Of a stretch of DNA of 64,000 nucleotides, positions 7,677 to 56,877 are shown in pieces (the stretch's first letter is position 1; the number at the start of each line of letters is the position of its first letter). Both the position numbers and the translations under genes were made by a program. Below the pieces are notes generated by a model. It did no database searches, had not been told where the DNA came from, and saw only the letters and a program-made list of their open reading frames with translations. The stretch comes from Pseudomonas nitroreducens TX1. Lineage in GTDB: Bacteria > Pseudomonadota > Gammaproteobacteria > Pseudomonadales > Pseudomonadaceae. The DNA is taken from assembly GCF_000313755.1 (NCBI RefSeq), contig NZ_AMZB01000116.1, positions 1-64,000 of the forward strand, given 5' to 3'.

Positions 7677-7680
7677 AACG

Positions 7681-7708
7681 AAAAAGCCGCCCCGAGGGGC
7701 GGCTTTTT
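7681..7708. terminator. Bidirectional terminator between DUF2062 gene and lol operon
   Basis: A5, then GCCGCCCC-GA-GGGGCGGC, then T5: an 8-bp GC-rich stem with U-tracts on both strands, between two convergent genes. Confidence 0.92.
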
Positions 7709-7721
7709 CCTAGGCCGGCGA

Positions 7722-8969: not shown

Positions 8970-8980
8970 TCCGTTATCCC

Positions 8981-39562: not shown

Positions 39563-39769
39563 TGGGTATCTCCACAAACAGGGCGCGCAGTTTAAGGGAA
39601 AGCGCGGAAAAGTCAGAGGGGTGCAGACAAAGTGCCAGGGCGAGACATTCGTCCCTCTTTGAGCCGGGCAGCCCTGGTGGCGCTTTCACCCCCTGCGCGC
39701 AACAGGCTAAGCTACCCGGCAGCGGGCGCGCGCCCTCCAGCGCCCACCGATCATCTTCCCGGAAGAGCC

Positions 39770-41695
39770 ATGCGCGGTCGCCTTTTCTCCCTGTTTTCCT
39801 GCCTGATCCTCAGCCTGTCCGCCTCGACAGCCAACGCAGCGTCCCTGCCCCAGCAGCGCCAGATGTACGACGAGGCGCAGAAGGCCCTTGCGCGCGGCGA
39901 CAGCGGCCCGTACTTCAGCTACCAGTCGGCGTTGGCCGATTATCCCCTGCAGCCGTACCTGGCCTACGACGAACTGACCAGCCGTTTGAAAAGCGCCAGC
40001 AACGCCGAGATCGAGCGGTTCATCGAGCAACACGGCGACCTGCCGCAGATCAACTGGCTGAAGCTGCGCTGGATGCGCCAGCTCGCCGACCGCGGTGACT
40101 GGAACACCTTCGTCCGTTATTACGACCCGAAGATGAACTTCACCGAACTGGACTGCCTCTACGGCCAGTATCTGTTGGGCCATGGCAACAAGGCCGACGG
40201 CTACGCCACCGCCGAGAAGCTCTGGCTGGTGGGCAAGCCGCAGCCCGATGCCTGCGACACTACCTTCGCCCTGTGGCAGGCCGACGGCCAACTTACCGAG
40301 GAGAAGGTCTGGAAACGCCTGAAGCTGGCTGCCGAAAAAGGCAACTACAGCCTCGCCACGGTACTCTCCAAGCGCCTGCCGACCCTCGGCAGCCAGGGCG
40401 CGTTGATGGTCAACGTCGCGCAGAACCCTTCGCAGCTGAGCCAGGCCACGCGTTTCGGCGCCCGCGACCACGCCACCGCCGACGTGGTCGGCCTCGGTCT
40501 GCGCCGCCTGGCCAAGCAGGACCCGGAAAAAGCCATCAACCTGCTGGACTACTACAGCTCGGTGCTGCCCTTCTCCAGCGACGAGAAAGTCTCCATCGCC
40601 CGCGAGATCGGCCTGAGTCTGGCGCGCCGCTACGACCCACGCGCACTGCCGATGATGGTCAAGTACGACCCGCAACTGCGCGACGACACCGTCACCGAAT
40701 GGCGCCTGCGCCTGTTGCTGCGGCTGGGCCGTTGGGAAGACGCCTATGAGCTGACCCGCGCCCTGCCACCGTCGCTGGCCGAGACCAACCGCTGGAAATA
40801 CTGGCAGGCGCGCTCGCTGCAACTGGCGCAGCCGCAGAACAAGCAGGCCATCAACCTGTACCAGCCGGTGGCCGGCGAACGTGATTTCTATGGTTTCCTT
40901 GCCGCCGACCGGATCAACGCCCCCTACCAGCTGAACAATCGCCCGGTATCGCTGGACGCGGCGACGATGCAGCGCGTGCGCAATGCGCCGAGCACCCGCC
41001 GCGCCCTGGAGTTCTACGCCCGCGGCGAGATCATCAACGCCCGCCGCGAGTGGTACCACGCTGCCCGCCACCTGAGCCACGACGAGCTGCTGGCCCAGGC
41101 GAAGATCGCCTACGACATGCAGTGGTACTTCCCGGCCATCCGCGCGATCAGCCAGGCCAAGTACTGGGACGACCTGGATATTCGCTTCCCCATGGCCTAC
41201 CGCAACACCCTGGTGCGCGAGGCGCGCAACCGAGGCCTGCACTCCAGCTGGGTATTCGCCATCACCCGCCAGGAAAGCGCCTTCATGTCCGACGCGCGCT
41301 CCGGCGTTGGCGCCACCGGCCTGATGCAACTGATGCCGGCCACCGCCAAGGAAACCTCGAAGAAATTCGGTATCCCGTTGGCCTCGCCGCAGCAATTGAT
41401 CGTGCCGGATGTGAACATCCAGCTCGGCGCCGCGTACCTGAGCCAGGTGCACGGCCAGTTCAACGGCAACCGCGTGCTCGCCACCGCCGCCTACAACGCC
41501 GGTCCCGGCCGCGTACGGCAGTGGCTGAAGGATGCGCGTCACCTGGCCTTCGACGTCTGGGTCGAGACCATTCCGTTCGATGAGACCCGCTCCTACGTGC
41601 AGAATGTGCTGTCCTACGCGGTGATCTACGGGCAGAAGCTCAACGCACCGCAGCCCATCGTCGACTGGCACGAACGCTTCTTCGACGAACTCTGA
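39770..41695 (+). CDS. slt: Soluble lytic murein transglycosylase Slt
   Basis: A 641-residue secreted enzyme with signal peptide (MRGRLFSLFSCLILSLSASTANA), a long superhelical U/L domain and a C-terminal lysozyme-like SLT domain. The catalytic acid is probably Glu502 in TRQESAFMSDARSG, followed by GATGLMQLMPATA. It cleaves peptidoglycan between MurNAc and GlcNAc with anhydro-product formation, feeding NagZ recycling. GGAAGAG precedes ATG 39770. Confidence 0.96.
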   Translation: MRGRLFSLFSCLILSLSASTANAASLPQQRQMYDEAQKALARGDSGPYFSYQSALADYPLQPYLAYDELTSRLKSASNAEIERFIEQHGDLPQINWLKLRWMRQLADRGDWNTFVRYYDPKMNFTELDCLYGQYLLGHGNKADGYATAEKLWLVGKPQPDACDTTFALWQADGQLTEEKVWKRLKLAAEKGNYSLATVLSKRLPTLGSQGALMVNVAQNPSQLSQATRFGARDHATADVVGLGLRRLAKQDPEKAINLLDYYSSVLPFSSDEKVSIAREIGLSLARRYDPRALPMMVKYDPQLRDDTVTEWRLRLLLRLGRWEDAYELTRALPPSLAETNRWKYWQARSLQLAQPQNKQAINLYQPVAGERDFYGFLAADRINAPYQLNNRPVSLDAATMQRVRNAPSTRRALEFYARGEIINARREWYHAARHLSHDELLAQAKIAYDMQWYFPAIRAISQAKYWDDLDIRFPMAYRNTLVREARNRGLHSSWVFAITRQESAFMSDARSGVGATGLMQLMPATAKETSKKFGIPLASPQQLIVPDVNIQLGAAYLSQVHGQFNGNRVLATAAYNAGPGRVRQWLKDARHLAFDVWVETIPFDETRSYVQNVLSYAVIYGQKLNAPQPIVDWHERFFDEL

Positions 41696-42205: not shown

Positions 42206-43015
42206 CTACTCCAGGACTTCCACGTCCATGCCCACACTCAGCTCGCCGCTGTTCAGGGCAATGAGGTTCTGGCCGAACAGCGCTTCGCCATTGACGTTGC
42301 GATAGCCCAGCAGGGTCGCCAGCGGCTCGCGGGCGGCATCGCGCTCGCCGGTATGCGGGTCGATGGTGGTGAGGATGCAGCGCGAGCAGGGCTTGGCCAC
42401 CTTGAAGGTGACGTCGCCGATGCGGATACGCTTCCAGCCATCTTCGGCGAAAGGCTCGGCGCCAGTGACCACCAGATTGGGGCGGAAGCGCAGCATCTCC
42501 AGCGGGCGTCCGACCTTGGCCGACAGGTCATCCAGCGAACCCTGGCCGATCAGCAACAGCGGGAAGCCGTCGGCGAAATGCACACGCTCGCCGGGCTCGG
42601 CGTAGGCGGTGTCGACCTGCCGGGCGCGCTGCTCGGGCATCTGCACCAGGCGCACGTCGCGACCGAGGAAGGTGCTCAGCCACTGGGCGGCGGCTTCGCC
42701 GGCATCCGGCACCTGCAGCATGTCGCGCCAGATGAGTACGCCGCGCAGGTTGTCGTCGCGGCCGGGCACATTCACCAGCAGGTCATCCATGCCGGGCGCG
42801 CGCAGGCGCAGGGCGGCGAAATCGTCCTGCCAGCGCGCCTCGATGCGGCCCATCTGCGGCAGCAGGCGCTGAGTGAGGAAGCGGCCATTGGAGGCCTCTA
42901 CCACCAGCCAGCGTCGGTCCCCTGCCAGGCCCAGCGCGTCCAGGCGGACGGACTCCAGCGGCTCGTAAGCGGTGGATTTGACCGGGTAGCGGTAGAGCGC
43001 GCTCAGGCTGTACAT
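42206..43015 (-). CDS. MOSC-domain protein (YcbX-like)
   Basis: A 269-residue protein with an N-terminal MOSC_N beta-barrel domain (MYSLSALYRYPVKS) and a C-terminal MOSC domain. Cys in KPCSRCILTTIDPHTGE is the conserved molybdenum-cofactor-binding region; the E. coli YcbX uses this to reduce N-hydroxylated compounds. It lacks the C-terminal ferredoxin domain of YcbX. It is flanked by REP palindromes upstream. Confidence 0.9.
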   Translation of the reverse strand: MYSLSALYRYPVKSTAYEPLESVRLDALGLAGDRRWLVVEASNGRFLTQRLLPQMGRIEARWQDDFAALRLRAPGMDDLLVNVPGRDDNLRGVLIWRDMLQVPDAGEAAAQWLSTFLGRDVRLVQMPEQRARQVDTAYAEPGERVHFADGFPLLLIGQGSLDDLSAKVGRPLEMLRFRPNLVVTGAEPFAEDGWKRIRIGDVTFKVAKPCSRCILTTIDPHTGERDAAREPLATLLGYRNVNGEALFGQNLIALNSGELSVGMDVEVLE

Positions 43016-43377: not shown

Positions 43378-44307
43378 TCAGGCGGGGACTTTCTGCAACC
43401 GCCGACGCACCACTTCCACCAACTGGTCCGGCTGGAACTTGGAGAGGAAGTCGTCGCAGCCGACCTTCTTCACCATGGCATCGTTGAAGCTGCCCGACAG
43501 CGAGGTGTGCAGCACCACGTAGAGGTCTCGCAGGCGCGGGTCGCTGCGGATCTCGGTGGTCAGCCGGTAGCCGTCCATTTCCGGCATCTCGGCGTCGGTG
43601 AAGACCATCAGCAGCTTCTCTTCCATGTCGTTGCCTTCGTCCGCCCAGCGCTTGAGCTGCTGCAGCGCGCGCAGGCCGTCAGTCGCAACATGCAGACGCA
43701 AGCCAAGCTGGCCGAGTGTGTCGCGCAGTTGGGAGATGGCCACGCTGGAGTCATCCACCACCAGCACTTCGCGGCCACGGGTCTGGCTGAGCAGCTTGTC
43801 GTCCAGGCGGTCGCTGGAGACGCGGGTGTTCATCGGCACGATCTCGGCGAGCACCTTTTCCACGTCGATGATTTCCACCAGGCGGTCTTCCACCTTGGTG
43901 ATCGCGGTCAGGTAGTGCTGGCGGCCCGCGCCACCGGGCGGCGGCTGGATCGACTCCCAGTTGAGGTTGAGGATGCGCTCTACCCCGCCCACCAGGAAGG
44001 CCTGCACCGAACGGTTGTACTCGGTGACGATGATGGTGCTGTTGGCATCCGGAGTCAGCGCACGCATGCCGATGGCGCGGGACAGGTCGATCACCGGCAG
44101 GGTCTGGCCGCGCAGGTTGATCACCCCGCAGATCATCGGGTGGCGCTGCGGGATCAGTGTCAGGCGCGGCAGTTGCAGCACTTCCTGCACCTTGAACACG
44201 TTGATCGCGAACTGCTGCCGCCCGGCCAGGCGGAAGACCAGGATTTCCAGGCGGTTCTCGCCTACCAGTTGGGTGCGTTGATCGACAGTGTCGAGAATAC
44301 CGGCCAT
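43378..44307 (-). CDS. cheV: CheV-type chemotaxis coupling protein
   Basis: A 309-residue fusion of a CheW domain (about residues 18-165, with GVINLRGQTLPVIDL) and a response-regulator receiver domain (about 180-305). The receiver shows Asp185/Asp186, phosphoacceptor Asp238 in FTDAEMPEMDG, and Lys290. CheV couples chemoreceptors to CheA and is adjusted by phosphorylation. No other chemotaxis gene lies in the window. The stop codon touches a partial REP. Confidence 0.95.
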   Translation of the reverse strand: MAGILDTVDQRTQLVGENRLEILVFRLAGRQQFAINVFKVQEVLQLPRLTLIPQRHPMICGVINLRGQTLPVIDLSRAIGMRALTPDANSTIIVTEYNRSVQAFLVGGVERILNLNWESIQPPPGGAGRQHYLTAITKVEDRLVEIIDVEKVLAEIVPMNTRVSSDRLDDKLLSQTRGREVLVVDDSSVAISQLRDTLGQLGLRLHVATDGLRALQQLKRWADEGNDMEEKLLMVFTDAEMPEMDGYRLTTEIRSDPRLRDLYVVLHTSLSGSFNDAMVKKVGCDDFLSKFQPDQLVEVVRRRLQKVPA

Positions 44308-44420: not shown

Positions 44421-45341
44421 TCAGCTGTTCGCGCCCATGAGCCGCTGGGTCGACGAGAGCAAGGGCGAGTCCGCTGGCAGATGCATGGAAATCGCCGCAG
44501 GGCGCACCTCGAAGCGCAGCCTGGGCCCCTCCAGCGGCTCGCCGTCGAGATTGACGTCCAGGCCCTCGTGCGCCTCGACCTCTATCCACGGCAGGCGCGC
44601 ACGGACGAACAGGTCCTGGGTACCAAGCCCACCGCCCAGCAGCGCGCCGAGGGTGCCGACCATGTCCTGCGGCGTCGGCAGGATGCTCACATCGAGCAAT
44701 CCATCGTCCGCTGCCGCCTGGGGACAGAGCACATGTCCGCCGCCCGCCTGCCGTCCGTTGCCGATGCCCAGCGCGAGGAATTCCCCTTCCCAGCTGAAAT
44801 CCGGGCCGCTGAAGCGGCCCTGCGCTGCATGCACCTCGGAGAAGCGCGTCAGGCCGGTGAGCAGGTAGGCCGCGCCGCCGAGCAGCTTCTTCAGGTCTTC
44901 CGGAGTATTGGCCGTGACCTTGGAGCCGAAGCCGCCGGTGGCCATGTTGAGGAACATCTGCCCGTCCACCTCGCCCAGGTCGATGGGCCGCGCCGGCACC
45001 TCCAGCAGGGCCAGCGCAGCGGCTGGCTCCAGCGGCACGCCGGCGGCACGGGCGAAGTCGTTGGCGGTGCCCAGCGGCAGGATCGCCAGGCTGGCCTTGC
45101 CACCGGCCTGGGCCAACGCCTCGGCGACATCGCGCACGGTGCCGTCTCCACCGCCGGCAATCAGCGTCGTATAGCCCGCTGCCAAGCCCTCCTCCACCAG
45201 GCGCCGGGCGTCGCCCGCCTCCCAGGTCACCCTCACGTCGAGCGTTTGCCCCGCCTCGCGCGCAGCCAGCACAGCGGCGCGCACCTCCTCGTTGGCGGCT
45301 TGCTTGCCATGCAGGATCAATAGGGCCTTGGGTTGCATCAT
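44421..45341 (-). CDS. yegS: YegS-type lipid kinase
   Basis: A 306-residue diacylglycerol-kinase-fold enzyme. GGGDGTVRDVAEAL (residues 65-78) binds the nucleotide, followed by PLGTANDFARAAG. In E. coli, YegS phosphorylates lipid substrates such as phosphatidylglycerol in vitro; the physiological substrate is not settled. GAGGAAG six bases before ATG 45341 fixes the start. The kinase gene lies 87 bases downstream of the FGGY kinase in the same direction, so it may be the last gene of that locus. Confidence 0.93.
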   Translation of the reverse strand: MMQPKALLILHGKQAANEEVRAAVLAAREAGQTLDVRVTWEAGDARRLVEEGLAAGYTTLIAGGGDGTVRDVAEALAQAGGKASLAILPLGTANDFARAAGVPLEPAAALALLEVPARPIDLGEVDGQMFLNMATGGFGSKVTANTPEDLKKLLGGAAYLLTGLTRFSEVHAAQGRFSGPDFSWEGEFLALGIGNGRQAGGGHVLCPQAAADDGLLDVSILPTPQDMVGTLGALLGGGLGTQDLFVRARLPWIEVEAHEGLDVNLDGEPLEGPRLRFEVRPAAISMHLPADSPLLSSTQRLMGANS

Positions 45342-45428
45342 GGTCGGCTTCCTCGCGAGTGATCCATTGAGCGTCAACTAATGGACCCAGAGTAGCGCGG
45401 GAAAATTTCGCCAACCTTCAACGGCGGA

Positions 45429-46988
45429 TCAGGCCGGGTAGCCGGTGATCTCGCGAATGCTCTGGTACAGCGGCTTGAGCTGCTTGTACATGCGCTGGTA
45501 GACCTCGCTGTACAGCCGCTCGTAGGTGCGCTGCGCCTCGGGGCGCGGATGGAAGACATCGCCGACGCGGGTCATGGCGGCGATGGCGTGGGTAAAGTCC
45601 GGATAGAGGCCGAGCCCCACCGCACAATCGATGGCTGCACCCAGGCCGGAAGCTTCGTAGACATGCGGACGCTCTGCCGGCAGGCCGAAGATGTCGGCGG
45701 TGAGCTGCATCGCCGCATCGCTCTGCGAGCCGCCACCGGCCACGCGCAGGCGCTGGATGCGGGTGCCGGAGCGCTTCTCGATACGCTCCTTGCCCTGGCG
45801 CAACGCGTAGGCCAGGCCTTCGAGGATGGCGCGGTAGATGTGCGCGCGGGTGTGCACGTCACCGAAGCCGATGATCGAGCCCTTGGCTTCCAGCCCCGGC
45901 TCGCGGATGCCCGGCGTCCAGTAGGGTTGCAGCATCAGGCCCATGGAGCCGGCGGGCACGCTGTCGACCAGTTCGTCAAAGAGTTTTTCCGGCTCGACGC
46001 CGAGTTCCTGCGCGCGTTGCATCTCGCGCAGGCCGAACTCGCGCTTGAACCAGCTGACCATCCAGAAACCGCGGTAGATCATCACCTCGGTGTTGAAGTG
46101 ATCGGGGATCGCCGCGGGGTACGGCGGGATCAGCGGGATGGTCTCCAGATAGCGTGAACGGGTGGTGTTGATGGTCGCGGTGGTGCCGTAGGACAGGCAG
46201 GCCACGGTCGGATCGATGGCGCCGGCGCCGAGCACTTCGCAGGCTTTGTCGGCGCCGGCGGCGATCAGCGGCAGGCCTTCGGGAATGCCGGTCAGGCGGC
46301 TGGCTTGGGCAGTGATCTCGCCCAGTTTCTCGCCGGGCTTGAACAGCTCCGGCAGCTGCTCGCGGCGCACGTCCAGCGCCTGCCACTTCCAGTCGCGCGG
46401 CGCGGCCCATTGCAGCTTCTTGTAGTCGAACGGCAGGTAGGCAACGCTGCAGGCCACCGAATCCACGTAGCGTCCGCACAGACGCTGGGTGAGGAAGCCG
46501 GAGAGCAGCAGCACCTTGTGCGTGCGCTGGTGGATGTCCGGCTGCTGCTGGGCGATCCAGTTCACTTCGGCCTGGGTACGGAAGTAATCCACCGCGCCCT
46601 GCGCGCCCACCAGCTTGAACAGCCACCCCCAGGGGCCCTTGATCGATTCGCCCGGCTCGGCGCGGCGCTGGTCCAGCCAGATGATCGCCGGGCGCAGGGC
46701 CCGACCCGCTTCGTCGACGTGGATCACGGTACCGCGCTGGGTCGTCAGCGAGACGCCACGGATGCGCCTGCGGTCGATGTCCACGCTGGCCCACAGGCGC
46801 TTGCAGGCCTCGCCCAGCTGCTCCCAGTAGTACTCCGGGTGCTGCTCGGCCCAACCGGGCTGCGAGGAGAAATAGGCTTCCAGCTCGACCTTGCCCTTGC
46901 CCACCAGGTTGCCCTGGAGATCGAAGAGCAGCGCGCGCACGCTCTGGGTGCCGTTGTCGATGGCCAGCAGGTAGTTGTTGTTATCCAT
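45429..46988 (-). CDS. FGGY-family carbohydrate kinase
   Basis: A 519-residue kinase of the glycerol/xylulose/ribulose kinase fold. The N-terminal domain starts LLAIDNGTQSVRALLFD, with WLDQRRAEPGE in place of the substrate motif; the C-terminal domain has AAGADKACEVLGAG and VAGGGSQSDAAMQ. The substrate is not clear from sequence: it is not GlpK-like in its substrate pocket region. ATG 46988 (MDNNNYLLAID) is used; the longer frame overlaps the dehydrogenase. Its partners are described under the locus findings. Confidence 0.9.
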   Translation of the reverse strand: MDNNNYLLAIDNGTQSVRALLFDLQGNLVGKGKVELEAYFSSQPGWAEQHPEYYWEQLGEACKRLWASVDIDRRRIRGVSLTTQRGTVIHVDEAGRALRPAIIWLDQRRAEPGESIKGPWGWLFKLVGAQGAVDYFRTQAEVNWIAQQQPDIHQRTHKVLLLSGFLTQRLCGRYVDSVACSVAYLPFDYKKLQWAAPRDWKWQALDVRREQLPELFKPGEKLGEITAQASRLTGIPEGLPLIAAGADKACEVLGAGAIDPTVACLSYGTTATINTTRSRYLETIPLIPPYPAAIPDHFNTEVMIYRGFWMVSWFKREFGLREMQRAQELGVEPEKLFDELVDSVPAGSMGLMLQPYWTPGIREPGLEAKGSIIGFGDVHTRAHIYRAILEGLAYALRQGKERIEKRSGTRIQRLRVAGGGSQSDAAMQLTADIFGLPAERPHVYEASGLGAAIDCAVGLGLYPDFTHAIAAMTRVGDVFHPRPEAQRTYERLYSEVYQRMYKQLKPLYQSIREITGYPA

Positions 46989-47014
46989 GGGGCTCTCGTT
47001 CAATGGGGCCGCGG

Positions 47015-48592
47015 TCAGTGCGGCAGGCTGTAGCAGCGACGCCACAAGGCCAGATAGTCCTGTTCCTCACGTTTCCAGCGCGTGTCGTCCCAGCCCAGGC
47101 GTGGCTGGCACAGTGCGCGGATCTTCGGCAGCTCGGCGGCTGCGCCATCGGCCAGCAGCAGGCCGATACGGGTACGGCGCAGCAACAGGTCGTCCAGGTG
47201 CAACACCAGTTCGCCTTCCGCCGCCCTAGCCAGCTCGGCCCAGAGACAATCGGTGTTGCCGATGCATGCGCTGCCCAGGGTTCTGATTGCCCTCGCCAGC
47301 TCCGGCAGCGCGCGGCCATGGCGACCGCTCAGGCGTCGCTTCTGTGGCGCAGTGAGTCCTGGCAAGTCGATGTCTGCCACCGGTTCGAAGACCTGCTCGC
47401 CGGCGGGTTCCAGCGGGCGCTCCAGCATCGGCGCGCAGGCCGCCAGGACTTCCAGCGCCAGCAGGCGGAAGGTGGTCAGCTTGCCGCCGGCCAGGGTCAC
47501 GCAGCCGGGCTCGACCCACAGCGCATGTTCGCGCTTCTCGTCCGACGGCCTGAGCACTGGGGCGCCATCGCTGACCACCGGACGCACCCCGGCCCAGGTG
47601 GAGAGCACATCTGCCGAGCTGATCCGGGCAGACGGGAACTGCTGCGCGCAGGCCGCCAGCAGGTAGTCCACTTCCTCGCGGCTGATGGCGGCATCATCGT
47701 CCAGCGTGTCGCGATGGTCGAGGTCGGTGGTGCCGACCACGGTCGCGCCCTCCCAGGGGAAGACGAACACCGGACGCTTGTCCTGACCGTGCATGAAGCT
47801 GAAGGCGTGGGCGACCGGCAAGCGCCAGGCCGGCAGCAACAGGTGGCTGCCGCGCAGCGGGCGGATGTGCTCGCTGCCTTGCTTCTGCCGCAAGGCATCG
47901 GCCCAGGCGCCGGTGGCCAGGGCCACGGCGCGGGCGCGGATACTGAAGCGCTGGCCGCTCTCGCTGTCCTCGGCGACCAGTCCCTGAATGCGACCATCGC
48001 GGCGGTCCAGTTCGATCACTTTCAAGCCGTTCAGGGCTTCGCCGCCTTCGGCACGCGCTTCGCCCAGCACACGCATCACCAGGCGTGCATCGTCGGTGAC
48101 CGCGTCCTCGAAACGGGTGCCGCCCAGCAGGCGGTTTTCCTTCAGCCCCGGCGCCAGGTAGCGCAATTCTTCCAGGCGATGGAACAGATGGTTTCGCCGC
48201 CCCGCGAGCGCGTCGTAGAGCCAGAGCAGGGCGCCGAACACCCGCGGGCCGGGGAAGCCGCCCTGGTAGTGCGGCATGATGAAGCTCAGCGGATCGACCA
48301 GCCCCGGTGCCTCGCCCAGCAGGCGCTGGCGCTCGCGCACCGAGTCGCGGGTCAGGCCGAACTGGCCCTTGGCGATGTAGCGCAAGCCGCCGTGGACCAT
48401 CTTCGACGAGCGGCTGGAGGTACCCCAGGCGAAGTCGCGCTGCTCGATCAGCAGGCAGCGCCAGCCGCGCCGCGCCGCCTCGCGCAGGATGCCGGCGCCA
48501 GTGATGCCGCCGCCGACCACGATCAGGTCCCAGTCGCGCGCCGCCAGTTCCGGCAACGCCTCGGCACGCCAGGCTGCATTCCAGGCAGGCAT
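47015..48592 (-). CDS. GlpD-like FAD-dependent glycerol-3-phosphate dehydrogenase
   Basis: A 525-residue flavoprotein of the DAO/GlpD family. VVGGGITGAGILREAARRGW at residues 25-44 binds FAD, followed by SKMVHGGLRYI and GTDLDH near residue 290. It oxidises sn-glycerol 3-phosphate or a related phosphate with electrons to the quinone pool. The C-terminal DAO_C helical domain is present. It is separate from the usual glp locus and lies between the FGGY kinase and the AGPS-like gene, with 26- and 4-base gaps. Confidence 0.9.
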   Translation of the reverse strand: MPAWNAAWRAEALPELAARDWDLIVVGGGITGAGILREAARRGWRCLLIEQRDFAWGTSSRSSKMVHGGLRYIAKGQFGLTRDSVRERQRLLGEAPGLVDPLSFIMPHYQGGFPGPRVFGALLWLYDALAGRRNHLFHRLEELRYLAPGLKENRLLGGTRFEDAVTDDARLVMRVLGEARAEGGEALNGLKVIELDRRDGRIQGLVAEDSESGQRFSIRARAVALATGAWADALRQKQGSEHIRPLRGSHLLLPAWRLPVAHAFSFMHGQDKRPVFVFPWEGATVVGTTDLDHRDTLDDDAAISREEVDYLLAACAQQFPSARISSADVLSTWAGVRPVVSDGAPVLRPSDEKREHALWVEPGCVTLAGGKLTTFRLLALEVLAACAPMLERPLEPAGEQVFEPVADIDLPGLTAPQKRRLSGRHGRALPELARAIRTLGSACIGNTDCLWAELARAAEGELVLHLDDLLLRRTRIGLLLADGAAAELPKIRALCQPRLGWDDTRWKREEQDYLALWRRCYSLPH

Positions 48593-48596
48593 CGTC

Positions 48597-50192
48597 TCAG
48601 TCCTGCAGCAGCGTGCCGGGGTTCAGCCGGCCGGACGGGTCGAAATGCCCGGCCAGCGCCTGGATCGCCGCCATGCCCAGCGGGCCCTTCTCCACCGGCA
48701 GATAGGGCGCGTGGTCCTTGCCCACGCCGTGCTGGTGGCTGATGGTTCCGCGGTGGTTGGCGATGGTCTGGCTGGCAGCGTGCTTGAGCTTGCGCCAGCG
48801 CTCGTGCGTCTGCGCATAGCTGGCCGCCGGGCGGAACACATAGGTGGTATAGATGCTCGAGCCTTCGCCATAGACATGCGACAGGTGGGTGAACACATGC
48901 ACGCGCTCGCCTTCGGCGGCCAGGCCCTCACGCAGGCTGGCTTCGATACGGTTCAGCAGGTTGTCGACGTTGGACCAGTCGGTGGCGGTTTCCAGGGTGT
49001 CGACCACGTAGCCGTTCTCCCACAGCGCTTCGCGCAGGTAAGGAAAGCGGAAGCGGTTCTGCGCCCATTTCCTGCCCAACAGGGTGCCGGTGAACACGCC
49101 GCCAAAGGCCTTGAGAAGGCGCCGCGCAGCACGCAGCGAGGTCGCGTTCTGGGCGCGGTCGCCGGTGACGCCGAAGGTCAGCATGCATTTGCCCTCGGCC
49201 GCGCCGCGCAGTTTCAGGTAGCGCTCCAGCCAGGCGATCTGCCCCGGATGACCTGCCAGTGCAAGCTGGGTGGTGGTTTCCACGGCATTGGACAGGCGCA
49301 GCATGGAGAGCGGTACGCGCGCCTGCACCAGGGTGCGGATGCCTTCCAGCGCCTGCTCCCAGGACGGCAGGAAAACCGCGTAGAAACGCTCGTCCTCGGC
49401 GATGCGCGTGACCCGCACCTTCACCGACGAGAGAATGCCGAAACGACCTTCGGAGCCCATCACCATCTCGCGCAGATCAGGCCCCGCCGAGGAGGCCGGG
49501 AAGGTCGGAATTTCCAGGGTACCGGCGAAGGTTTCCAGCGAACCGCCGGCGAACAGCTGCTCGATGCGCCCGTAGCGCAGCGACTGCTGGCCACTGGAAC
49601 GGCTGGCGACCCAGCCACCGAGGGTGGAGAGCTCCCAGGACTGCGGGAAGTGACCGAGGGTATAGCCCCGGGCGCGCAGCTGGCTTTCTACTTGCGGCCC
49701 GTTGGCGCCGGGGCCGAAGGTGGCGATCAGGCTCTGCTCGTCCAATTCCAGCAGGCGGTTCATGTGCTCCAGGGAAACCGTGAGCACCGCCTTGTCGGAC
49801 ACCGGCGGGTTGATGTGACCGGCCACCGAGGTGCCGCCGCCATAGGGGATCACCAGGCAGTCCCAGAGCTCGGCGAACTTCAGTAGCTCACGGATCTGCT
49901 CGGCGGTCTGCGGGTAGGCCACGCCGTCGGGGAACACGCCGAAGTCGCCTTCGCGCATCGCCAGCCAGTCCGGCAGGCTCTGGCCGCGAGCGTGCAGCAG
50001 GCGGTCCCGGGCTTCGCGCACCACCAGCGGATGCTCGGGCAGGCGCGAGGCCGGCACCTTGGCCAGTACCTGCTCCAGCGTCGCGTCCGGCAGCGTCAGG
50101 CCCGGGCCCACCAGTTCGGCGAGGAACCCACGCCCGTTATCGGGCAGTTCGACCACCGTCGTTTCTTCACCCCAGCCGTTCCAGCGTCGCAT
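48597..50192 (-). CDS. FAD-binding oxidase resembling alkyl-DHAP synthase
   Basis: A 531-residue protein with an FAD-binding PCMH domain (YGGGTSVAGH near residue 120) and a C-terminal domain ending GTISHQHGVGKDHAPYL. That end matches the active-site motif of alkyldihydroxyacetonephosphate synthase, where HHH is seen in eukaryotes; here residues 486-488 are HQH. AGPS replaces the acyl chain of acyl-DHAP by a fatty alcohol. E. coli YgcU is, from memory, a distant relative. Activity here is not proven. It is the first gene of the operon, 157 bases from the divergent araC-type gene. Confidence 0.88.
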   Translation of the reverse strand: MRRWNGWGEETTVVELPDNGRGFLAELVGPGLTLPDATLEQVLAKVPASRLPEHPLVVREARDRLLHARGQSLPDWLAMREGDFGVFPDGVAYPQTAEQIRELLKFAELWDCLVIPYGGGTSVAGHINPPVSDKAVLTVSLEHMNRLLELDEQSLIATFGPGANGPQVESQLRARGYTLGHFPQSWELSTLGGWVASRSSGQQSLRYGRIEQLFAGGSLETFAGTLEIPTFPASSAGPDLREMVMGSEGRFGILSSVKVRVTRIAEDERFYAVFLPSWEQALEGIRTLVQARVPLSMLRLSNAVETTTQLALAGHPGQIAWLERYLKLRGAAEGKCMLTFGVTGDRAQNATSLRAARRLLKAFGGVFTGTLLGRKWAQNRFRFPYLREALWENGYVVDTLETATDWSNVDNLLNRIEASLREGLAAEGERVHVFTHLSHVYGEGSSIYTTYVFRPAASYAQTHERWRKLKHAASQTIANHRGTISHQHGVGKDHAPYLPVEKGPLGMAAIQALAGHFDPSGRLNPGTLLQD

Positions 50193-50349
50193 GCCCGCTC
50201 CTTTTATCCAGGTCTCTGTCTGCCATTTCGATAGCTATTCCGGTGCCGCTTGATGGCTGCCTATACTAGCCAGCCGCCCTGCCCTGTCACTGTCGGATCA
50301 AGACAGGCGCAGTTGCCGATCGAGACACCGAAGAACAAGAACTCACGCC

Positions 50350-51378
50350 ATGCATTCCCTGGGCTACACCTCCGTCCCCGCACTGCTGAAATACCTGCGC
50401 CACGCCGAGTCCCTCGGCATGGACCAGGACGCTGCCCTCAAGGCTGCCGGCCTGGAACGCTCGCAACTGAGCGACAACAGCCAGCGTCTGCCGAGCGAGG
50501 CCCACGAACGCCTGCTGCAGCACCTTTGCGCGCACTCCGGCGATCCGTTGTTCGGCCTGCACTCCGCACGCTTCGTGCAGCCAGGCTCCTGGAGCGTGCT
50601 GGGCTACATCACCATGAACTGCGCCAACCTGGGCGAAGCCATGGGCCGCATCATTCCCTACGAGAAGCTGGTCGGCGACATGGGCGTCAGCCGCCTGGAA
50701 CCGGGCACGGACCACATCAAGCTGATCTGGAACTGCCGTCACGAGGCGGCGCAGATCCGCCGGCACATGGTGGAAAACGTGCTGGCATCCTGGCTGCTCT
50801 ATGCGCGCTGGATCGCCGACACCGATGGCTCGCCGCAGGAAGTCTGGTTCGAGCACGCGCAGCCCGAGGGCGCCGATGTTGCCGAGTACGAGCAACTGTT
50901 CGGCTGCCCGGTGCGTTTCGAGCAACCCTTCAGCGCCCTGCTGGTACCCCTGCAGTTGCTCAGCTACCCGCTGCGCCAGGCCGACGCCAATCTGCTGCGC
51001 ACCCTGGAAGAACACGCCCTGGCGCTGATGGCCGAACTGGACGACGACGAGCCGCTGCCGCTGCGGGTGAAGAACGCCCTGCGACTGCTGCTCAAGGACG
51101 GCCTGCCGCGCAAGGAGCGCGTCGCCGAACGCTTCGACATGACCGTGCGCACCCTGCAACGCCACCTGCAGCAGGCCGGCGCCAGTTACCAGCAGATCCT
51201 CGACGAACTGCGCCAGGAACTCGCCAAACACTACCTGGTGCACAGCGACCTGCCGATCCAGGACATCGCCCAGTACCTGGGCTTCACCGAGTCGCGCTCC
51301 TTCCATCGCAGCTTCAAGGGCTGGACGGACCAGACGCCCGGCGAATATCGCCAGCAGCACAAGAAAACGCCGGTCTGA
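50350..51378 (+). CDS. AraC-family transcriptional regulator
   Basis: A 342-residue regulator with an N-terminal Arabinose_bd-type domain (residues 10-200) and a C-terminal AraC double helix-turn-helix (about 240-338, ending FHRSFKGWTDQTPGEYRQQH). It is divergent from the AGPS-like operon and is the obvious candidate regulator of it. The ligand is unknown. The stop codon is in the loop of its own terminator. Confidence 0.93.
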   Translation: MHSLGYTSVPALLKYLRHAESLGMDQDAALKAAGLERSQLSDNSQRLPSEAHERLLQHLCAHSGDPLFGLHSARFVQPGSWSVLGYITMNCANLGEAMGRIIPYEKLVGDMGVSRLEPGTDHIKLIWNCRHEAAQIRRHMVENVLASWLLYARWIADTDGSPQEVWFEHAQPEGADVAEYEQLFGCPVRFEQPFSALLVPLQLLSYPLRQADANLLRTLEEHALALMAELDDDEPLPLRVKNALRLLLKDGLPRKERVAERFDMTVRTLQRHLQQAGASYQQILDELRQELAKHYLVHSDLPIQDIAQYLGFTESRSFHRSFKGWTDQTPGEYRQQHKKTPV

Positions 51379-51856: not shown

Positions 51857-54800
51857 ATGGGCGAGTCGTATCAGTGGGATTTCGGTTCGGTTGCATCCGG
51901 CCTGCAATTCAAGATCGTTTTCGACGGCACCGGCTTCACGGTGACCTGCACATCCGGCTATCTGGATCTCAACGCCCTCTGGTTCTCGGACGGCGACAAG
52001 AGTGCCGAGGGGACGGTTACCCTGGCCAAATCCGATAACAGCCTCAACATGAACGGCACCGGTATTACCTGGGATGACGTCTACAAGGTTTCCAGCACCG
52101 GGCTTGGCTCTACGGGCACGAACAAGGCCAGCTTCCTCACCGCCGGCGAGTCGATGTCGTTCTCCCTGGCGACGCTCGACCTGCCGGAATCCATCAGCGC
52201 ACTGCTGGCCAATCCCACACTGCTGACCATTGGCGTGCGGGTCACCAGCGACAGCTCGACCAGTGGCGAGGGCAAGTATGTCGACACCAGCGGCACGCTG
52301 ATCTCGAGCGTCAACCATGCGCCGACCCTGGCCACCGTCAGCAATGGCACGGTCACCGATACCGCGGGGGACGACAGCTTTGCGAACGTGAGCGGGACCC
52401 TGCACGGCAGCGATGCCGACGGCAACCCGGTGAGTTACAAACTGGCGGATTCCAGCGCCTCGAGCGGCACCGGGGACAGTGCCGGCTTCAACGTGCAGAA
52501 GAGTTCGGACTACGGAACCTTCTACCTGAATACCGCCAGCGGGGCCTACAAGTTCGTCGCCAACGATGCCGCGGTGGAGGGCCTGAAGACCACCCAGACC
52601 GCAGACTTCACGGTCAGCGCGACCGATGGCGTCGCCGATAGCGCCACCCAGACCATCAGCATCAGCCTGAACGGCGTCAACGATACCCCCGAGCTCAACG
52701 CCTCGCTGACCGCCTTCACCTTCATCGACACCTCGGGGAACGACAGCTTCACCAGCGTGACTGGCCAACTGACCAGCACGGACCGCGACGTCGGCGATAC
52801 GGCGAGCTATGCCATCGATGACAGCAGTGCTGCGACCGGGTCCTTCGATGTGAACGGCCACGTCTATCAACAGAAACTGGTCGGCAACTTTGGCACGCTC
52901 TACCTGGACACCAGTGGCGCCTACGAGTACGTCCCCAACGACTCCGCCGTCGAAGCGCTGGAGGCAAGCACCAGCGAAAGCTTCACGCTCAAGGTGACCG
53001 ATGACTCGAATGCAACCGCCACCAAGACCCTGACCATCAACCTGACCGGGGCCGAAGATGCGCCGGAGGTGACGGCGGTAGTTGCGGGTTATGCCGACAC
53101 AGAGGCCGACGACACCTTCGCCGATACCACCGGTACGCTCAACGTCAGTAGCCGCGACGGTGACACCAGCTTCACCTTCACCCTGTCGGGCAGCAGTGAC
53201 TCGGTGCTATCGGGTTACGACCGACAGGACACCAGCAGTGCCTTCGGCACGCTCTACCTGAACAGCACCAGTGGCGCCTACAAGTTCATCGCCAATGACG
53301 CAGCCATCGAAGCGCTCGAAAGCGGCAGCATTCCCAACGCGGTTTATCACGTCACCGCTGCTGCCGACGGTGTGACTTCGGCGGACCAGACCATCACCAT
53401 CACCTTTGCAGGCGCCGAAGACGCCCCGCTCGTGGCGCCCGTGCTGGAGTCCTATCTCGATACGGCCGCCGACGACACCTTCGCCGACAAGACCGGCACC
53501 CTGGACGTCACCAGCCGCGACGGCGACTCCAGCTTCACCTTCGCACTGGCTGGCAGTAGCGCGACGGGACAACTGGACTATGACCTGAAGAACGCCAGCA
53601 GTGGTTACGGCACCCTGTACCTGAACAGCAGCACGGGCGCGTACAAGTTCGTTGCGAACGACGCGGCCATCGAAGGCCTGGAAAGTGGCAACAACCCGAG
53701 CGCGATCTATCACGTTACCGCTGCAGCGGACAACGCGACCTCGTCCGACCAGACCATCACCATCAACCTCAACGGCGCCGAAGATGCACCGGTGGTGGCT
53801 CCCGTGGTGGCGAGCTACACCGACACGGCCGCCGACGACACCTTCACCGACAAGACCGGCACCCTAAGCGTCACCAGCCGCGATGGCGATTCCAGCTTCA
53901 CCTTCGCTCTGGCTGGCAGTAGCGCGACGGGACAACTGGACTATGACCTGCAGAACACCAGCAGCATCTTCGGCACGCTGTACCTCAACAGCACCAGCGG
54001 CGCCTACAAGTTCGTGGCCAACGACGCAGCCATTGAAGCGCTGCAGCCCGGCAGCAATCCAAGCCTGGTGTATGCCGTCACAGCCTCCGCTGACGGCGCG
54101 ACCTCGGCCAGCCAATCCATCACCCTCGGCATTACCGGCGGCAACGATGCGCCGCGCGACCTGACGCTGACGGCGGACACCTCCAACGCCTTCATCACGG
54201 GCAATGGCGTGCCCGGCAACAACGGAGCTATCGGCACCATCAGCGTGACCGCCGGCTCCGACCCGGACGCGGGTGGCAGTTATTCCTTCAGCCTCTTCAG
54301 CGCCAAGTCCGGCGCCCTGGGCGCGGCAAGCATCAGCACCGATGCCAGCGGGCTGTTCGCCGTCAGCAGCGCGGGAGCGCTCAGCAGCACAACGGGGCTG
54401 GCGTCGGGCACCATCTACGAGGTGACGGTCCAGGCAAGCCAGGGTTCCGGTGCGACGCTTGCCACCTACAACGAGACCTTCAGCGTCGTCACTGGCACCA
54501 ACGCCGGGACGGAAACCCTACCCGGCGGGGGGTACGACTTCAGCTCGGGCGACGATGTCATCTACGGCCGGCAGAACGTCGACATCATCCTTGCCGGTTC
54601 GGGCGACGACACCGTGTTCGGCCAGGACGGCAACGACGAGATCCATGGCGGCACCGGCATCGACCTGCTGTTCGGCGGCAAGGACAACGACTCTTTCGTG
54701 TTTTCCACCGGCAACACCGGCATCACCCTGGCAACCGCGGATACCATTGGCGACTTCAACTCGGCGAACGACACCATCGTCACCTCGCTGGCTGCGGGCA

Positions 54801-55045
54801 ACGTCACCATTGCCAATGGTTCCTCGTTGTCCGACTTCAATGCCTTCGTCGCCGCCGCAAACGCATCGATGGCGACGGGCACGGCAACCAGCGGTTCTTA
54901 CATGGCCTGGAACGCTGCGGGCACGGGCAATGGGTGGCTGGTCATCGACGAGAACCACAGCAACTCGGTGGACAGTGGCGACAGCTTGATCGTGCTGACC
55001 GGGGTGAACACGGCAACTGGGTTTGCAACGACCGATATCGCCTGA
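51857..55045 (+). CDS. VCBS-repeat RTX protein, likely secreted adhesin
   Basis: A 1062-residue Ser/Thr/Asp-rich protein without Sec signal. Residues 1-155 form a unique beta-rich N-terminus starting MGESYQWDFGSV. Five VCBS-type repeats (GTLYLNS-x-SGAYKF-x-AND core) begin near residues 171, 294, 417, 538 and 659. A cadherin-like stretch follows, then RTX nonapeptides (SGDDTVFGQ, DGNDEIHGG, TGIDLLFGG; about residues 895-945) and a C-terminal type I secretion target ending TGFATTDIA. GAGGGA precedes ATG 51857. It most likely is a calcium-binding surface or biofilm protein exported by a type I system encoded elsewhere. Confidence 0.88.
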   Translation: MGESYQWDFGSVASGLQFKIVFDGTGFTVTCTSGYLDLNALWFSDGDKSAEGTVTLAKSDNSLNMNGTGITWDDVYKVSSTGLGSTGTNKASFLTAGESMSFSLATLDLPESISALLANPTLLTIGVRVTSDSSTSGEGKYVDTSGTLISSVNHAPTLATVSNGTVTDTAGDDSFANVSGTLHGSDADGNPVSYKLADSSASSGTGDSAGFNVQKSSDYGTFYLNTASGAYKFVANDAAVEGLKTTQTADFTVSATDGVADSATQTISISLNGVNDTPELNASLTAFTFIDTSGNDSFTSVTGQLTSTDRDVGDTASYAIDDSSAATGSFDVNGHVYQQKLVGNFGTLYLDTSGAYEYVPNDSAVEALEASTSESFTLKVTDDSNATATKTLTINLTGAEDAPEVTAVVAGYADTEADDTFADTTGTLNVSSRDGDTSFTFTLSGSSDSVLSGYDRQDTSSAFGTLYLNSTSGAYKFIANDAAIEALESGSIPNAVYHVTAAADGVTSADQTITITFAGAEDAPLVAPVLESYLDTAADDTFADKTGTLDVTSRDGDSSFTFALAGSSATGQLDYDLKNASSGYGTLYLNSSTGAYKFVANDAAIEGLESGNNPSAIYHVTAAADNATSSDQTITINLNGAEDAPVVAPVVASYTDTAADDTFTDKTGTLSVTSRDGDSSFTFALAGSSATGQLDYDLQNTSSIFGTLYLNSTSGAYKFVANDAAIEALQPGSNPSLVYAVTASADGATSASQSITLGITGGNDAPRDLTLTADTSNAFITGNGVPGNNGAIGTISVTAGSDPDAGGSYSFSLFSAKSGALGAASISTDASGLFAVSSAGALSSTTGLASGTIYEVTVQASQGSGATLATYNETFSVVTGTNAGTETLPGGGYDFSSGDDVIYGRQNVDIILAGSGDDTVFGQDGNDEIHGGTGIDLLFGGKDNDSFVFSTGNTGITLATADTIGDFNSANDTIVTSLAAGNVTIANGSSLSDFNAFVAAANASMATGTATSGSYMAWNAAGTGNGWLVIDENHSNSVDSGDSLIVLTGVNTATGFATTDIA
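52367..54193 (+). repeat. Five tandem repeats within the VCBS/RTX gene
   Basis: The aligned start codons lie at 52367, 52736, 53105, 53468 and 53831, giving periods of 369, 369, 363 and 363 bases (123 and 121 residues). Repeats 4 and 5 share a 42-base identical run beginning near 53545 and 53908, so the last duplication is recent or kept homogeneous. Confidence 0.88.
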
Positions 55046-55126: not shown

Positions 55127-56341
55127 TTAGTCGAGCAACTCGCTGAACGGGATGAAGACCAGCCAATCGCCTTCAACCAGCGTCGTTCCCTCGCGCACTT
55201 CTGCCAGTCCCTCGGCCCAGGCGGCGCTGCGCAGTACACCGGAACTCTGGTTGGCGAAAGGCACAGCACGGCCGTTCTCCAGTCTTGCACGCAGGTACTC
55301 GCGGCGATTGCCTGGCTTGGTCCAGTTGAAGCCAGCTGGCACCTGCAGGCGTAAAGGCTCGACCTTCTGCATACCGAGGCGACGCATCAGGTAGGGTCGC
55401 GCCAGCAGCGCGAAGGTCACCAGGGTGGACGCCGGGTTGCCCGGCAGCCCGATCACCGGCACCTGCTGATACTGGCCCACGGTCAGTGGCTTGCCCGGCT
55501 TGATCGCCAGTTTCCACAGCGCCAGCTCGCCCGCTTCACGCAGGGCCGCACCGAGAAAATCCGCCTCGCCGACGGAAACGCCGCCGGTGGAAAGGATCAG
55601 GTCAACATTCGACAACCCGGCCAGGGCCGCGCGTGTGCGCTCCAAGTCGTCCGGAAGGATGCCGGCGTCCACCACTTCGCAACCAAAGCGCTGCAGCCAG
55701 GTGCGCAGCAGGTGCCGGTTGCTGTTGTAGATCTGCCCGAGCGCCAGCGGCTGGCCCGGTTCGACCAATTCATCGCCGGTGGACAGCAGCGCCACGCGCG
55801 GGCGGCGACGCACACTCAATTCGGCATGACCTAGCGATGCCGCCAGACCGATCTCGATCGGCCCCAGGCGCGTGCCGGCGGGCAGCACACAGTCCCCCTT
55901 GCGGGTTTCCTGGCCCTGCGGGCGTACGTGCTGTCCGGCCTTGAGTGCCTCGAGGAAACGCACGCGGCCGTCCTCCAGCACTTCGACGTTTTCCTGCATC
56001 TCGACGCAATCGGCGCCCTCGGGTACCGGCGCACCGGTGAAGATGCGCACGCAGGTGCCCGGCACCAGCGGTTCGCCCGCCTGCCCGGCGAAGATCTTCT
56101 GGCTGACCGGCAGCGCCTCGCCCTGCCAGTCGGCCTGGCGCAGCGCATAGCCGTCCATGGCGCTGTTCGGCCACGGCGGCAAGTCCAGTCCGGCCAACAG
56201 GGGCTCGGCGAGCACGCGGCCGTCAGCCTCGCTCAGCGACAGGGTCTCGGTATCGAGGATCGGCGCCTGCTCCGCCAGGCTCAGCAGGCGCGCCAGGGCG
56301 TCCTCGACCGGCAGCAGTCCCGGCTTGTCGCAGCCGCTCAT
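55127..56341 (-). CDS. moeA: Molybdopterin molybdenumtransferase MoeA
   Basis: MoeA inserts molybdate into adenylylated molybdopterin. The 404-residue protein has the MoeA N-terminal domain, the molybdopterin-binding domain with LSTGGVSVGEADF, and GLPGNPASTLVTF near residue 315. ATG 56341 lies in ATGA overlapping the moaB stop, so the genes are coupled; the longer frame starts inside moaB. Confidence 0.95.
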   Translation of the reverse strand: MSGCDKPGLLPVEDALARLLSLAEQAPILDTETLSLSEADGRVLAEPLLAGLDLPPWPNSAMDGYALRQADWQGEALPVSQKIFAGQAGEPLVPGTCVRIFTGAPVPEGADCVEMQENVEVLEDGRVRFLEALKAGQHVRPQGQETRKGDCVLPAGTRLGPIEIGLAASLGHAELSVRRRPRVALLSTGDELVEPGQPLALGQIYNSNRHLLRTWLQRFGCEVVDAGILPDDLERTRAALAGLSNVDLILSTGGVSVGEADFLGAALREAGELALWKLAIKPGKPLTVGQYQQVPVIGLPGNPASTLVTFALLARPYLMRRLGMQKVEPLRLQVPAGFNWTKPGNRREYLRARLENGRAVPFANQSSGVLRSAAWAEGLAEVREGTTLVEGDWLVFIPFSELLD

Positions 56342-56877
56342 CCGCGGCTCTCGCAGGGCGCCGCCTTTTTCAGGTGCGGAGCGAAATTGCAAGGGCGGTG
56401 GCTGGCGTCAAGCTGCTCGCCGAGAATACCGTCCCAAGCGGTGCGGCAGGCGTTGGTGGAGCCCGGCAGACAGCAGACCAGGGTGCCGTTGGCGAGGCCG
56501 GCCAGCGCACGGGACTGGACAGTGGAGGTGCCGATGTCGGCCACGGAAATCTGCCGGAACAGCTCGCCAAAGCCGTCCACTACCTTGTCCAGCAGGCAGG
56601 TTACGGCCTCCGGGGTGCTGTCGCGGCCGGTGAAGCCGGTACCGCCGGTAACCAGCACGACCTGCACTTCGTCTTCGGCAATCCAGGTCGCGACCTGGGC
56701 GCGGATGCGGTAGAGGTCATCCTTGAGCAGGACGCGGGCCGCGAGGTTGTGGCCCGCGGCCTTCAGGCGGTCGACGAACAGCTGGCCGGAGGTGTCGGTT
56801 TCCAGAGTGCGGGTATCGCTGACGGTGAGGACGGCGATGTTCAGCGGGACGAATGGCTGCTCGGCCTTGTGGCTCAT
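56338..56877 (-). CDS. moaB: Molybdenum cofactor biosynthesis protein MoaB
   Basis: A 179-residue MogA/MoaB-fold protein that adenylylates molybdopterin before MoeA acts. VLTVSDTRTLETDTSGQ and VVLVTGGTGFTGRD are the family's substrate motifs; the C-terminus contains LVCCLPGSTNACR. ATG 56877 is chosen; the frame extends into mobA on the other strand. Divergent from mobA with a 70-base gap. Confidence 0.95.
   Translation of the reverse strand: MSHKAEQPFVPLNIAVLTVSDTRTLETDTSGQLFVDRLKAAGHNLAARVLLKDDLYRIRAQVATWIAEDEVQVVLVTGGTGFTGRDSTPEAVTCLLDKVVDGFGELFRQISVADIGTSTVQSRALAGLANGTLVCCLPGSTNACRTAWDGILGEQLDASHRPCNFAPHLKKAAPCESRG

Follow-up and report, generated by a model that had tools for sequence, protein, structure and literature searches.

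What does the operon beside the regulator gene gliR do? We asked this of a locus in Pseudomonas nitroreducens TX1, within a stretch of 64,000 nucleotides that we analyzed as a whole (contig NZ_AMZB01000116.1, positions 1 to 64,000; hereafter, the window). Four genes on one strand encode a flavoprotein that resembles alkyl-dihydroxyacetone-phosphate synthase (AGPS), a dehydrogenase that resembles GlpD, a kinase of the FGGY family, and a YegS-type lipid kinase, and a divergent gene encodes the AraC-family regulator GliR. (We call the first three genes the triad.) Our answer is that the cluster could serve to break down glycerol ethers (R-O-glycerol); judging from sequence, we would give this an even chance of being right. 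The features of the locus, with the corresponding genes of P. aeruginosa, are as follows (FAD is flavin adenine dinucleotide).

50350 to 51378, plus strand: divergent gene for the AraC-family regulator GliR (Pfam Arabinose_bd and HTH_18; NCBIfam NF050186)
50193 to 50349, no strand: divergent promoter region, probably under the control of GliR; 157 bases from the start of the AGPS-like gene to the AraC gene
48597 to 50192, minus strand: AGPS-like FAD flavoprotein in the position of PA3026; 531 amino acids (Pfam FAD_binding_4 and FAD-oxidase_C)
47015 to 48592, minus strand: GlpD-like FAD dehydrogenase in the position of PA3025; 525 amino acids (Pfam DAO and DAO_C)
45429 to 46988, minus strand: FGGY kinase in the position of PA3024; 519 amino acids from ATG, and a longer GTG start is possible (Pfam FGGY_N and FGGY_C)
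44421 to 45341, minus strand: YegS-type lipid kinase in the position of PA3023, accessory; 306 amino acids from ATG (Pfam DAGK_cat and YegS_C)

An earlier note on this DNA had described four closely packed genes on one strand with a divergent AraC regulator, and gene calls, Pfam, and NCBIfam confirmed this: counting from ATG starts, the gaps between the AGPS and GlpD, GlpD and FGGY, and FGGY and YegS genes are 4, 26, and 87 bases. The AraC protein scores 669.1 bits against the GliR equivalog model (NF050186, cut-off 570) and the lipid kinase scores 454 bits against the YegS model (TIGR03702, cut-off 387), while none of the other three proteins is above any curated NCBIfam cut-off. With a divergent GliR beside AGPS-GlpD-FGGY-YegS, the window carries the GliR locus, which is PA3027-PA3023 in P. 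aeruginosa. The identities that the note gave to the four genes, and its linking of a kinase to GlpD and AGPS, stand. In the promoter region, the blocks GACAGTGACAGG and CTAGTATAGGCAGCCAT (on the AGPS-sense strand) are identical across the 6 Pseudomonas sequences that we aligned, which were picked by hand and four of which are near-identical. The published GliR motif A has only weak fits there, with 3 mismatches, and no chance level was computed for these.

How might these proteins work together? GliR would switch on the operon, and the FGGY kinase would phosphorylate the glycerol unit at its unsubstituted end, converting R-O-glycerol to R-O-glycerol 3-phosphate. The GlpD-like flavoprotein would then oxidize C2 to form R-O-dihydroxyacetone phosphate (R-O-DHAP). 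In the proposed mechanism of AGPS, N5 of the flavin and C1 of the DHAP unit form an adduct as the C1 substituent departs. The AGPS-like flavoprotein would carry out an adduct step of this type with water as the final acceptor, which would yield DHAP (which would enter glycolysis) and the alcohol ROH. In Pseudomonas, the likeliest substrates would be 1-O-alkylglycerols or lyso ether lipids, and YegS might be a second, lipid-facing kinase. (We also considered the head groups of betaine lipids, which are ethers; a search of the accessible literature yielded nothing on their bacterial breakdown.) We infer these reactions, their direction, and the substrate from the gene content, gene order, conservation, and residues that we observed. 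The locus is already known, and the proposed pathway is a recombination of known enzyme families.

The earlier note had suggested that the pathway may be undescribed, which holds for the function and not for the locus. The regulon of GliR (PA3027) in P. aeruginosa was published in 2021 (PMC8151288). Within the accessible literature that carries any of the five P. aeruginosa locus tags, this is the sole publication about the locus. An excess of GliR raised the expression of PA3026-PA3023 and of PA3464 (plcA, a phospholipase C) by over 40-fold, and GliR bound the promoter of PA3026 (PMC8151288). This bears on co-transcription in P. aeruginosa, as co-induction and not as a single transcript. The same paper describes a deletion, discussed below, and a first survey, in which 12 of 1748 reference genomes had the arrangement (4 with all five genes and 8 with the regulator and the triad); these were mostly Pseudomonas, plus Shewanella, Oblitimonas, and Rhodoferax. 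The function of PA3027-PA3023 is still without an assignment, as the earlier note had said of PA3024-PA3027. In another study, the PA3026 protein was lower on octadecane than on hexadecane (PMC5491041), which is uninformative for function. Our literature searches, including those for YgcU and Rv2251/Rv2252, mostly covered sources outside subscription journals, and no description of such a glycerol-ether pathway surfaced in them.

Which of the genes belong together? We used nine aligned homologs to scan genome contigs, and 580 relatives were confirmed. Counts are for the best 80 loci (numbered with an L), whose genes were called by codon bias; some genes may be missed. Of these loci, 75 have 3.3 kb or more of downstream sequence, and in 73 of the 75 the AGPS, GlpD, and FGGY genes share one strand and one order, with median gaps of 5 and 7 bases. 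In the other two (L084 and L087), the AGPS gene has neither GlpD nor FGGY beside it; of the five loci with less sequence downstream, the triad is still visible in one (L110). Upstream, 76 loci have enough sequence to show a divergent GliR-like gene, and 39 of them do (28 of 31 from Pseudomonas and 11 of 45 others). YegS is in the fetched stretch of 11 of the 80 loci, all from Pseudomonas. The conserved unit is the three-gene core AGPS-GlpD-FGGY, and the YegS and AraC genes are optional. The self-contained module of the earlier note survives as this core, while the rarity of YegS near the triad rules out a four-gene module that includes it.

The triad occurs in a range of bacteria that includes Pseudomonas, Marinobacter, SAR86, SAR92, Porticoccaceae, Endozoicomonas, Oleiphilus, Moritella, Agitococcus, Rhodanobacter, Rhodoferax, Undibacterium, Chitinimonas, and Pseudovibrio, and in two metagenome-assembled genomes (MAGs) that are labelled Actinomycetota and Chloroflexi and may be misbinned. 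Homologs at E ≤ 1e-60 were found in 18 of 398 sampled genomes of the phylum (16 of them of the window's type, at 52-100% identity), so the locus is patchily spread. In six loci (L105, L106, L104, L110, L111, and L113), a pair of genes for a short-chain dehydrogenase and an extended short-chain dehydrogenase (the SDR pair) lies upstream of the triad on the same strand. GliR lies between the pair and the triad in L104, L110, L111, and L113, and in SAR86 (L105) the pair abuts the triad to form a run of five genes. A similar pair is also in L028.

Is the first enzyme of the operon related to AGPS? When we compared the flavoprotein to solved structures with phmmer, the best matches were AGPS from Dictyostelium (2uuu; E = 5e-64, 220 bits) and from guinea pig (E = 2e-53, 186 bits), and the next best was D-lactate dehydrogenase (E = 1e-18, 71 bits). 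Among FAD-linked oxidases with solved structures, AGPS is the closest to the flavoprotein by both phmmer and a tree. The window's protein keeps R419, R515, Y578, H615, and H617 of guinea-pig AGPS, as do all 95 aligned rows. (R419 and Y578, which align to R299 and Y448 of the window's protein, were numbered by counting in the printed alignment, at positions where two PDB chains of the guinea-pig enzyme differ from wild type.) The full set of AGPS residues is broken by H616, which is glutamine in the window, in 90 of the 95 rows, and in 90 of 91 rows from the triad clade (90 distinct sequences). The five rows with histidine are Escherichia coli YgcU, L029, L030, L031, and the triad member L093. 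In a tree of 37 AGPS-like proteins (L156, L161, L162, L030, L157, and L164 were left out), a supported branch (97/94) groups Dictyostelium AGPS with the window's clade, with an actinobacterial clade whose genes adjoin GlpD and YegS, and with a clade that has no kinase nearby. Linkage to a kinase (26 of 37 rows) requires just 2 changes on this tree, and 0 of 500 shuffles were as low; near-copies favor this result. As a control, we read 14-18 kb at each of 3 other FAD-linked oxidase genes of the window's genome: none of the 3 has FGGY, GlpD, or YegS nearby, and an AraC gene weakly similar to GliR is close to one of them.

The flavoprotein might instead be a dehydrogenase of the GlcD or D-lactate type, without any link to DHAP, and the kinase and GlpD might act on a C3-C5 polyol, which would make this a locus for plain polyol or hydroxy-acid catabolism. 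The best-scoring model for the kinase is a xylulokinase, some AGPS-like genes lie with CoA-transferases or with TRAP or ABC importers and have no kinase, and one AGPS-like gene (L159) has a four-carbon acid sugar kinase and PdxA as neighbors, all of which would fit. However, the score of the flavoprotein is far higher for AGPS than for D-lactate dehydrogenase. Also, R419, Y578, and the HxH motif were not found in L158, a paralog from the window's own genome (it has a long branch and is the sole such paralog in the tree), and the glycerol-phosphate positions of GlpD are all kept, as described below. We consider this explanation unlikely. Alternatively, the substrate and the first two steps could be as we propose, with the flavoprotein oxidizing C1 (by the ketone) to a hemiacetal, which would give ROH and a three-carbon dicarbonyl phosphate. 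The FAD-linked oxidase superfamily mostly performs oxidations, and the glutamine at H616 indicates that the AGPS active site is altered. Against this, the dicarbonyl would be reactive, and outside the triad and GliR, each gene cluster is found in at most 12 of the non-Pseudomonas loci (the clusters are only partly annotated). Oxidative cleavage seems very improbable to us.

Does the dehydrogenase recognize a glycerol phosphate? It scores 276 bits against the NCBIfam equivalog for glycerol-3-phosphate dehydrogenase, below the cut-off of 360. Its active site, however, is intact: what we take to be the active-site residues of GlpD (R54, Y55, H233, R317, R332, and K354, placed in the alignment by motif) are kept in all 86 triad rows (85 distinct) and in 9 of 9 proteins from other AGPS clusters. 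This would be expected of an enzyme that holds the head of glycerol 3-phosphate. A GlpD over the cut-off is encoded in 8 of the 16 triad genomes that we tested, a mixed result.

Could the kinase simply be a glycerol kinase? The window's kinase scores 264 bits against the XylB equivalog (cut-off 380) and 159-163 bits against those for GlpK (cut-offs 590 and 498). The glycerol-kinase signature is R83, E84, Y135, D245, and F270, and E84 binds glycerol (PMC3245297). The window's kinase keeps R83, Y135, and D245 but departs from GlpK at E84 (glycine), Q246 (lysine), and F270 (threonine). Among 86 aligned kinases (85 triad rows and E. coli YgcE), R83 and D245 are in all and E84 is in none; the F270 column has threonine in 85 and alanine in YgcE, and the Q246 column has lysine in 85 and asparagine in 1. 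E84 is also absent from 13 of 13 AGPS-linked FGGY kinases outside the triad clade (counting YgcE again). The GlpK-like kinases of L139, L140, L154, and L155 have lost E84 and keep R83, D245, Q246, and F270, and it is mainly for these that the loss appears to be telling. We also checked 16 triad genomes (the window's and 15 that were reached through non-Pseudomonas loci) for a separate GlpK-type kinase. All 16 have one (15 over the cut-off; in SAR86, 579 bits vs. 590), and R-E-D-Q-F can be read in every one of them, with E84 kept. Therefore, the triad kinase is not the glycerol kinase of these bacteria, and on this basis, together with the loss of E84, we reject glycerol as its main substrate. 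The presence of GlpK in all 15 genomes from non-Pseudomonas loci conflicts with PMC8151288, whose accessible text reports that homologs of glpD and glpK were not found in its non-Pseudomonas genomes.

The authors of the GliR study suggested a scheme of ether-lipid synthesis in which the AGPS-like enzyme acts in the forward direction and glycerol becomes alkyl-DHAP by way of glycerol 3-phosphate, DHAP, and acyl-DHAP; for the DHAP acyltransferase, the accessible text names only candidates (PMC8151288). The proposal in the earlier note, of glycerol, DHAP, and ether-lipid chemistry, resembles this scheme. Besides having been published, synthesis could explain why AGPS is the nearest solved structure and why Dictyostelium AGPS groups (97/94) with the window's clade and with the YegS-linked and no-kinase clades. 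The SDR pair upstream of the triad in SAR86 and its relatives could reduce alkyl-DHAP, and in one MAG (L092) a PlsC-type acyltransferase gene (8637-9422) directly precedes the AGPS gene of the triad. But with a separate GlpK-type kinase in each of the 16 genomes, a dedicated kinase or GlpD would be superfluous, and the triad kinase lacks E84. Synthesis would need a reduction at C2 after alkyl-DHAP, yet GlpD oxidizes, and it would need a source of acyl-DHAP, yet the conserved triad contains no acyltransferase. Also, we know of no ether lipids from Pseudomonas. Overall, we doubt that the locus is for synthesis, which we rate as unlikely too.

Do more distant relatives of the flavoprotein favor catabolism? 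We read 20 plasmid stretches, which were chosen by hand out of 241 and 92 matched records, so no rate can be derived from them. The distant AGPS-like proteins are 26-37% identical to the window's protein where this was measured. A gene for a small-molecule or lipid kinase is beside the AGPS-like gene in 12 of the 20 stretches. Distant clusters with swapped parts are as follows.

L139 and L140: MFS importer, FGGY, GlpD, AGPS, GlpP antiterminator
L154 (Cupriavidus, unannotated): FGGY and GlpD with the AGPS-like gene
L138: GlpD, AGPS, FGGY
L145 (Novosphingobium): GlpD, AGPS, FGGY, with MFS genes
L144 (Paracoccus): ABC importer, GlpD, AGPS, FGGY, aldehyde dehydrogenase, two enoyl-CoA hydratases, TetR, iron alcohol dehydrogenase, thioesterase, all on one strand
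L146, L152, and L160: AGPS, FGGY, ABC importer, glycerol or iron alcohol dehydrogenase, SDR
L147 (Enterococcus): glycerol dehydrogenase, GlpP, FGGY, AGPS
L148 (Tsukamurella) and L149 (Streptomyces), actinobacterial plasmid loci: GlpD and TetR divergent from AGPS and YegS
L153 (Mesorhizobium): FGGY and AGPS, with LacI and an ABC importer
L155: AGPS, a gene without a recognized family, GlpK, GlpD
L159, 6953 to 11987: AGPS, PdxA-type dehydrogenase, four-carbon acid sugar kinase, MFS

In Paracoccus, a gene similar to acyl-CoA ligases precedes the run on the same strand. In L159, the same three roles appear to be filled by unrelated parts. Because the kinase and the C2 dehydrogenase are replaceable around a constant AGPS-type enzyme, catabolism fits better than synthesis. 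Catabolism is also favored because importers, antiterminators of the glycerol-3-phosphate type, and (in Paracoccus) alcohol-oxidizing genes accompany AGPS. The earlier note had held that ether cleavage or a different reaction was as likely as synthesis, and this comparison shifts the evidence further towards catabolism. More broadly, there might be a general, oxygen-free bacterial route in which a kinase activates R-O-glycerol, C2 is oxidized, and the chemistry of AGPS is reversed with water, while the kinase, the dehydrogenase, and the importer are exchanged between lineages around the AGPS-type enzyme. Since the parts vary by lineage, such a route might serve both soluble glycerol ethers or glycosides (with FGGY or GlpK-like kinases and importers) and lipid ethers (with YegS).

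Several observations weigh against glycerol-ether catabolism. Growth of P. aeruginosa was unaffected by the deletion of PA3026-PA3024, whether in the media that were tried, under osmotic stress, or in Biolog plates (PMC8151288). Neither an importer nor an alcohol dehydrogenase is in the operon of the window's clade; these come from the distant clades. What the window's clade offers are hints of a lipid-facing role: YegS, the co-regulation of plcA (PMC8151288), a FadR-type regulator directly upstream of the AGPS gene in L112 (2777-3493), the acyltransferase by L092, and the SDR pair. Some of these hints would also suit synthesis, including the SDR pair of SAR86, SAR92, and Porticoccaceae. As for the deletion, we know of no long-chain alkylglycerols among the substrates in Biolog plates. 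As E84 is typical of GlpK, lacking it is ordinary for XylB-like kinases, the window's branch included. Y135 is tyrosine in only 33 of the 86 triad-type kinases, and R83 is lost in 4 of the 13 kinases outside the triad clade. R419, Y578, and all three histidines are also kept in the sister clade without a nearby kinase, so they do not prove DHAP chemistry, and most of the distant clades with soluble importers lack arginine at the R515 column (L145 and YgcU have it; the alignment there is unsure). In SAR86, Agitococcus, and one MAG, the genome has no long GlpD match other than the triad's, which may therefore also act on ordinary glycerol 3-phosphate.

Also, 8 of the 20 plasmid stretches (L150, L151, and L161-L166) have no annotated kinase and no match to FGGY, GlpD, or YegS at E = 1e-4. 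The supported no-kinase clade includes L029, L031, L141, L142, L150, L151, L163, L165, and L166, and some of its genes adjoin CaiB-type CoA-transferases, TRAP or ABC importers, or GMC oxidoreductases. This clade probably has a separate function. Given the weaker case for the window's own clade, we would not go beyond an even balance for glycerol-ether catabolism in the window, and we offer the general route more tentatively, as a possibility that we doubt.

A TRAP importer that we had guessed from gene lengths, upstream of the triad in Pseudovibrio, was rejected: those genes match families for sulphur transport, isochorismatase, and nicotinate phosphoribosyltransferase. The recurrent neighbors in Marinobacter, considered as parts of the pathway, are apparently unrelated (secretion and GGDEF/EAL-like proteins, by eye from the translations). 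Two betaproteobacterial MAGs (L099 and L102) have sulfatase genes just before the triad, and L102 also has a radical SAM/SPASM gene. In the no-kinase clade, a gene of the sterol-desaturase family precedes the AGPS-like gene of L163 (Rhodococcus; 5785-8590); animal alkylglycerol monooxygenase (AGMO) belongs to the sterol-desaturase superfamily. In the window, a repetitive protein of 1062 amino acids with a C-terminal, RTX-like calcium-binding repeat (51857-55045, plus strand; Pfam HemolysinCabind, E = 5e-6) adjoins the regulator. Ordinary neighbors are a soluble lytic transglycosylase (39632-41695), a MOSC protein (42206-43015), a CheV-like protein with CheW and receiver domains (43378-44307), and MoeA (55127-56392).

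If the general route is correct, then it would give a function to the GliR operon, to ygcU/ygcE of E. coli, and to the actinobacterial cluster of GlpD, AGPS, and YegS, and would unite them under a single hypothesis that names its substrates and can be tested. Ether-linked glycerol is common in the lipids of animals, algae, and archaea. A flavin-based route in Pseudomonadota (including SAR86), Actinomycetota, and Bacillota would add new biochemistry of ecological relevance. On this view, eukaryotic AGPS would seem to have evolved from a catabolic etherase or to have an ancestor in common with one.

How does the locus compare to known systems? It shares its genes, their order, and the divergent regulator with the GliR locus (PA3027-PA3023) of P. 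aeruginosa; what differs from the published scheme (PMC8151288) is that we propose the opposite direction, on an O-substituted glycerol, and a wider family. The flavoprotein is homologous to eukaryotic AGPS (PDB 2uuu and 4bby) over most of its length, has the catalytic arginine, tyrosine, and two histidines, and is on the same side of the supported branch, but the window's clade has glutamine for H616 and is in an operon with a kinase and a dehydrogenase, and the triad has no gene for making acyl-DHAP. As in the GlpK-GlpD pathway for glycerol catabolism, a kinase would be followed by an FAD dehydrogenase, the GlpD positions are kept, and distant versions have GlpP antiterminators; the triad differs in its kinase without E84, in the separate GlpK of all 16 genomes, and in having a third enzyme. 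The ygcN-ygcE region of E. coli K-12 (ygcU, ygcE, ygcP, ygcS, and yqcE) encodes an AGPS-like protein (YgcU, 26% identity), an FGGY kinase that also lacks E84 (YgcE, 31% identity), the antiterminator-like YgcP, and transporters. No GlpD was found there, and the region has the SDR-like YgcW and the flavoproteins YgcQ/YgcR (presumably of the electron-transfer type) instead. Deleting ygcU leaves the response to D-serine unchanged (PMC13012123), and in the accessible text of PMC8228696 ygcU is merely listed. Finally, AGMO likewise cleaves the ether bond of alkylglycerols, and has been termed the only known enzyme to do so (PMC7911779, PMC9192799), but it is a membrane enzyme that depends on tetrahydrobiopterin, whereas the bacterial route would use a flavin.

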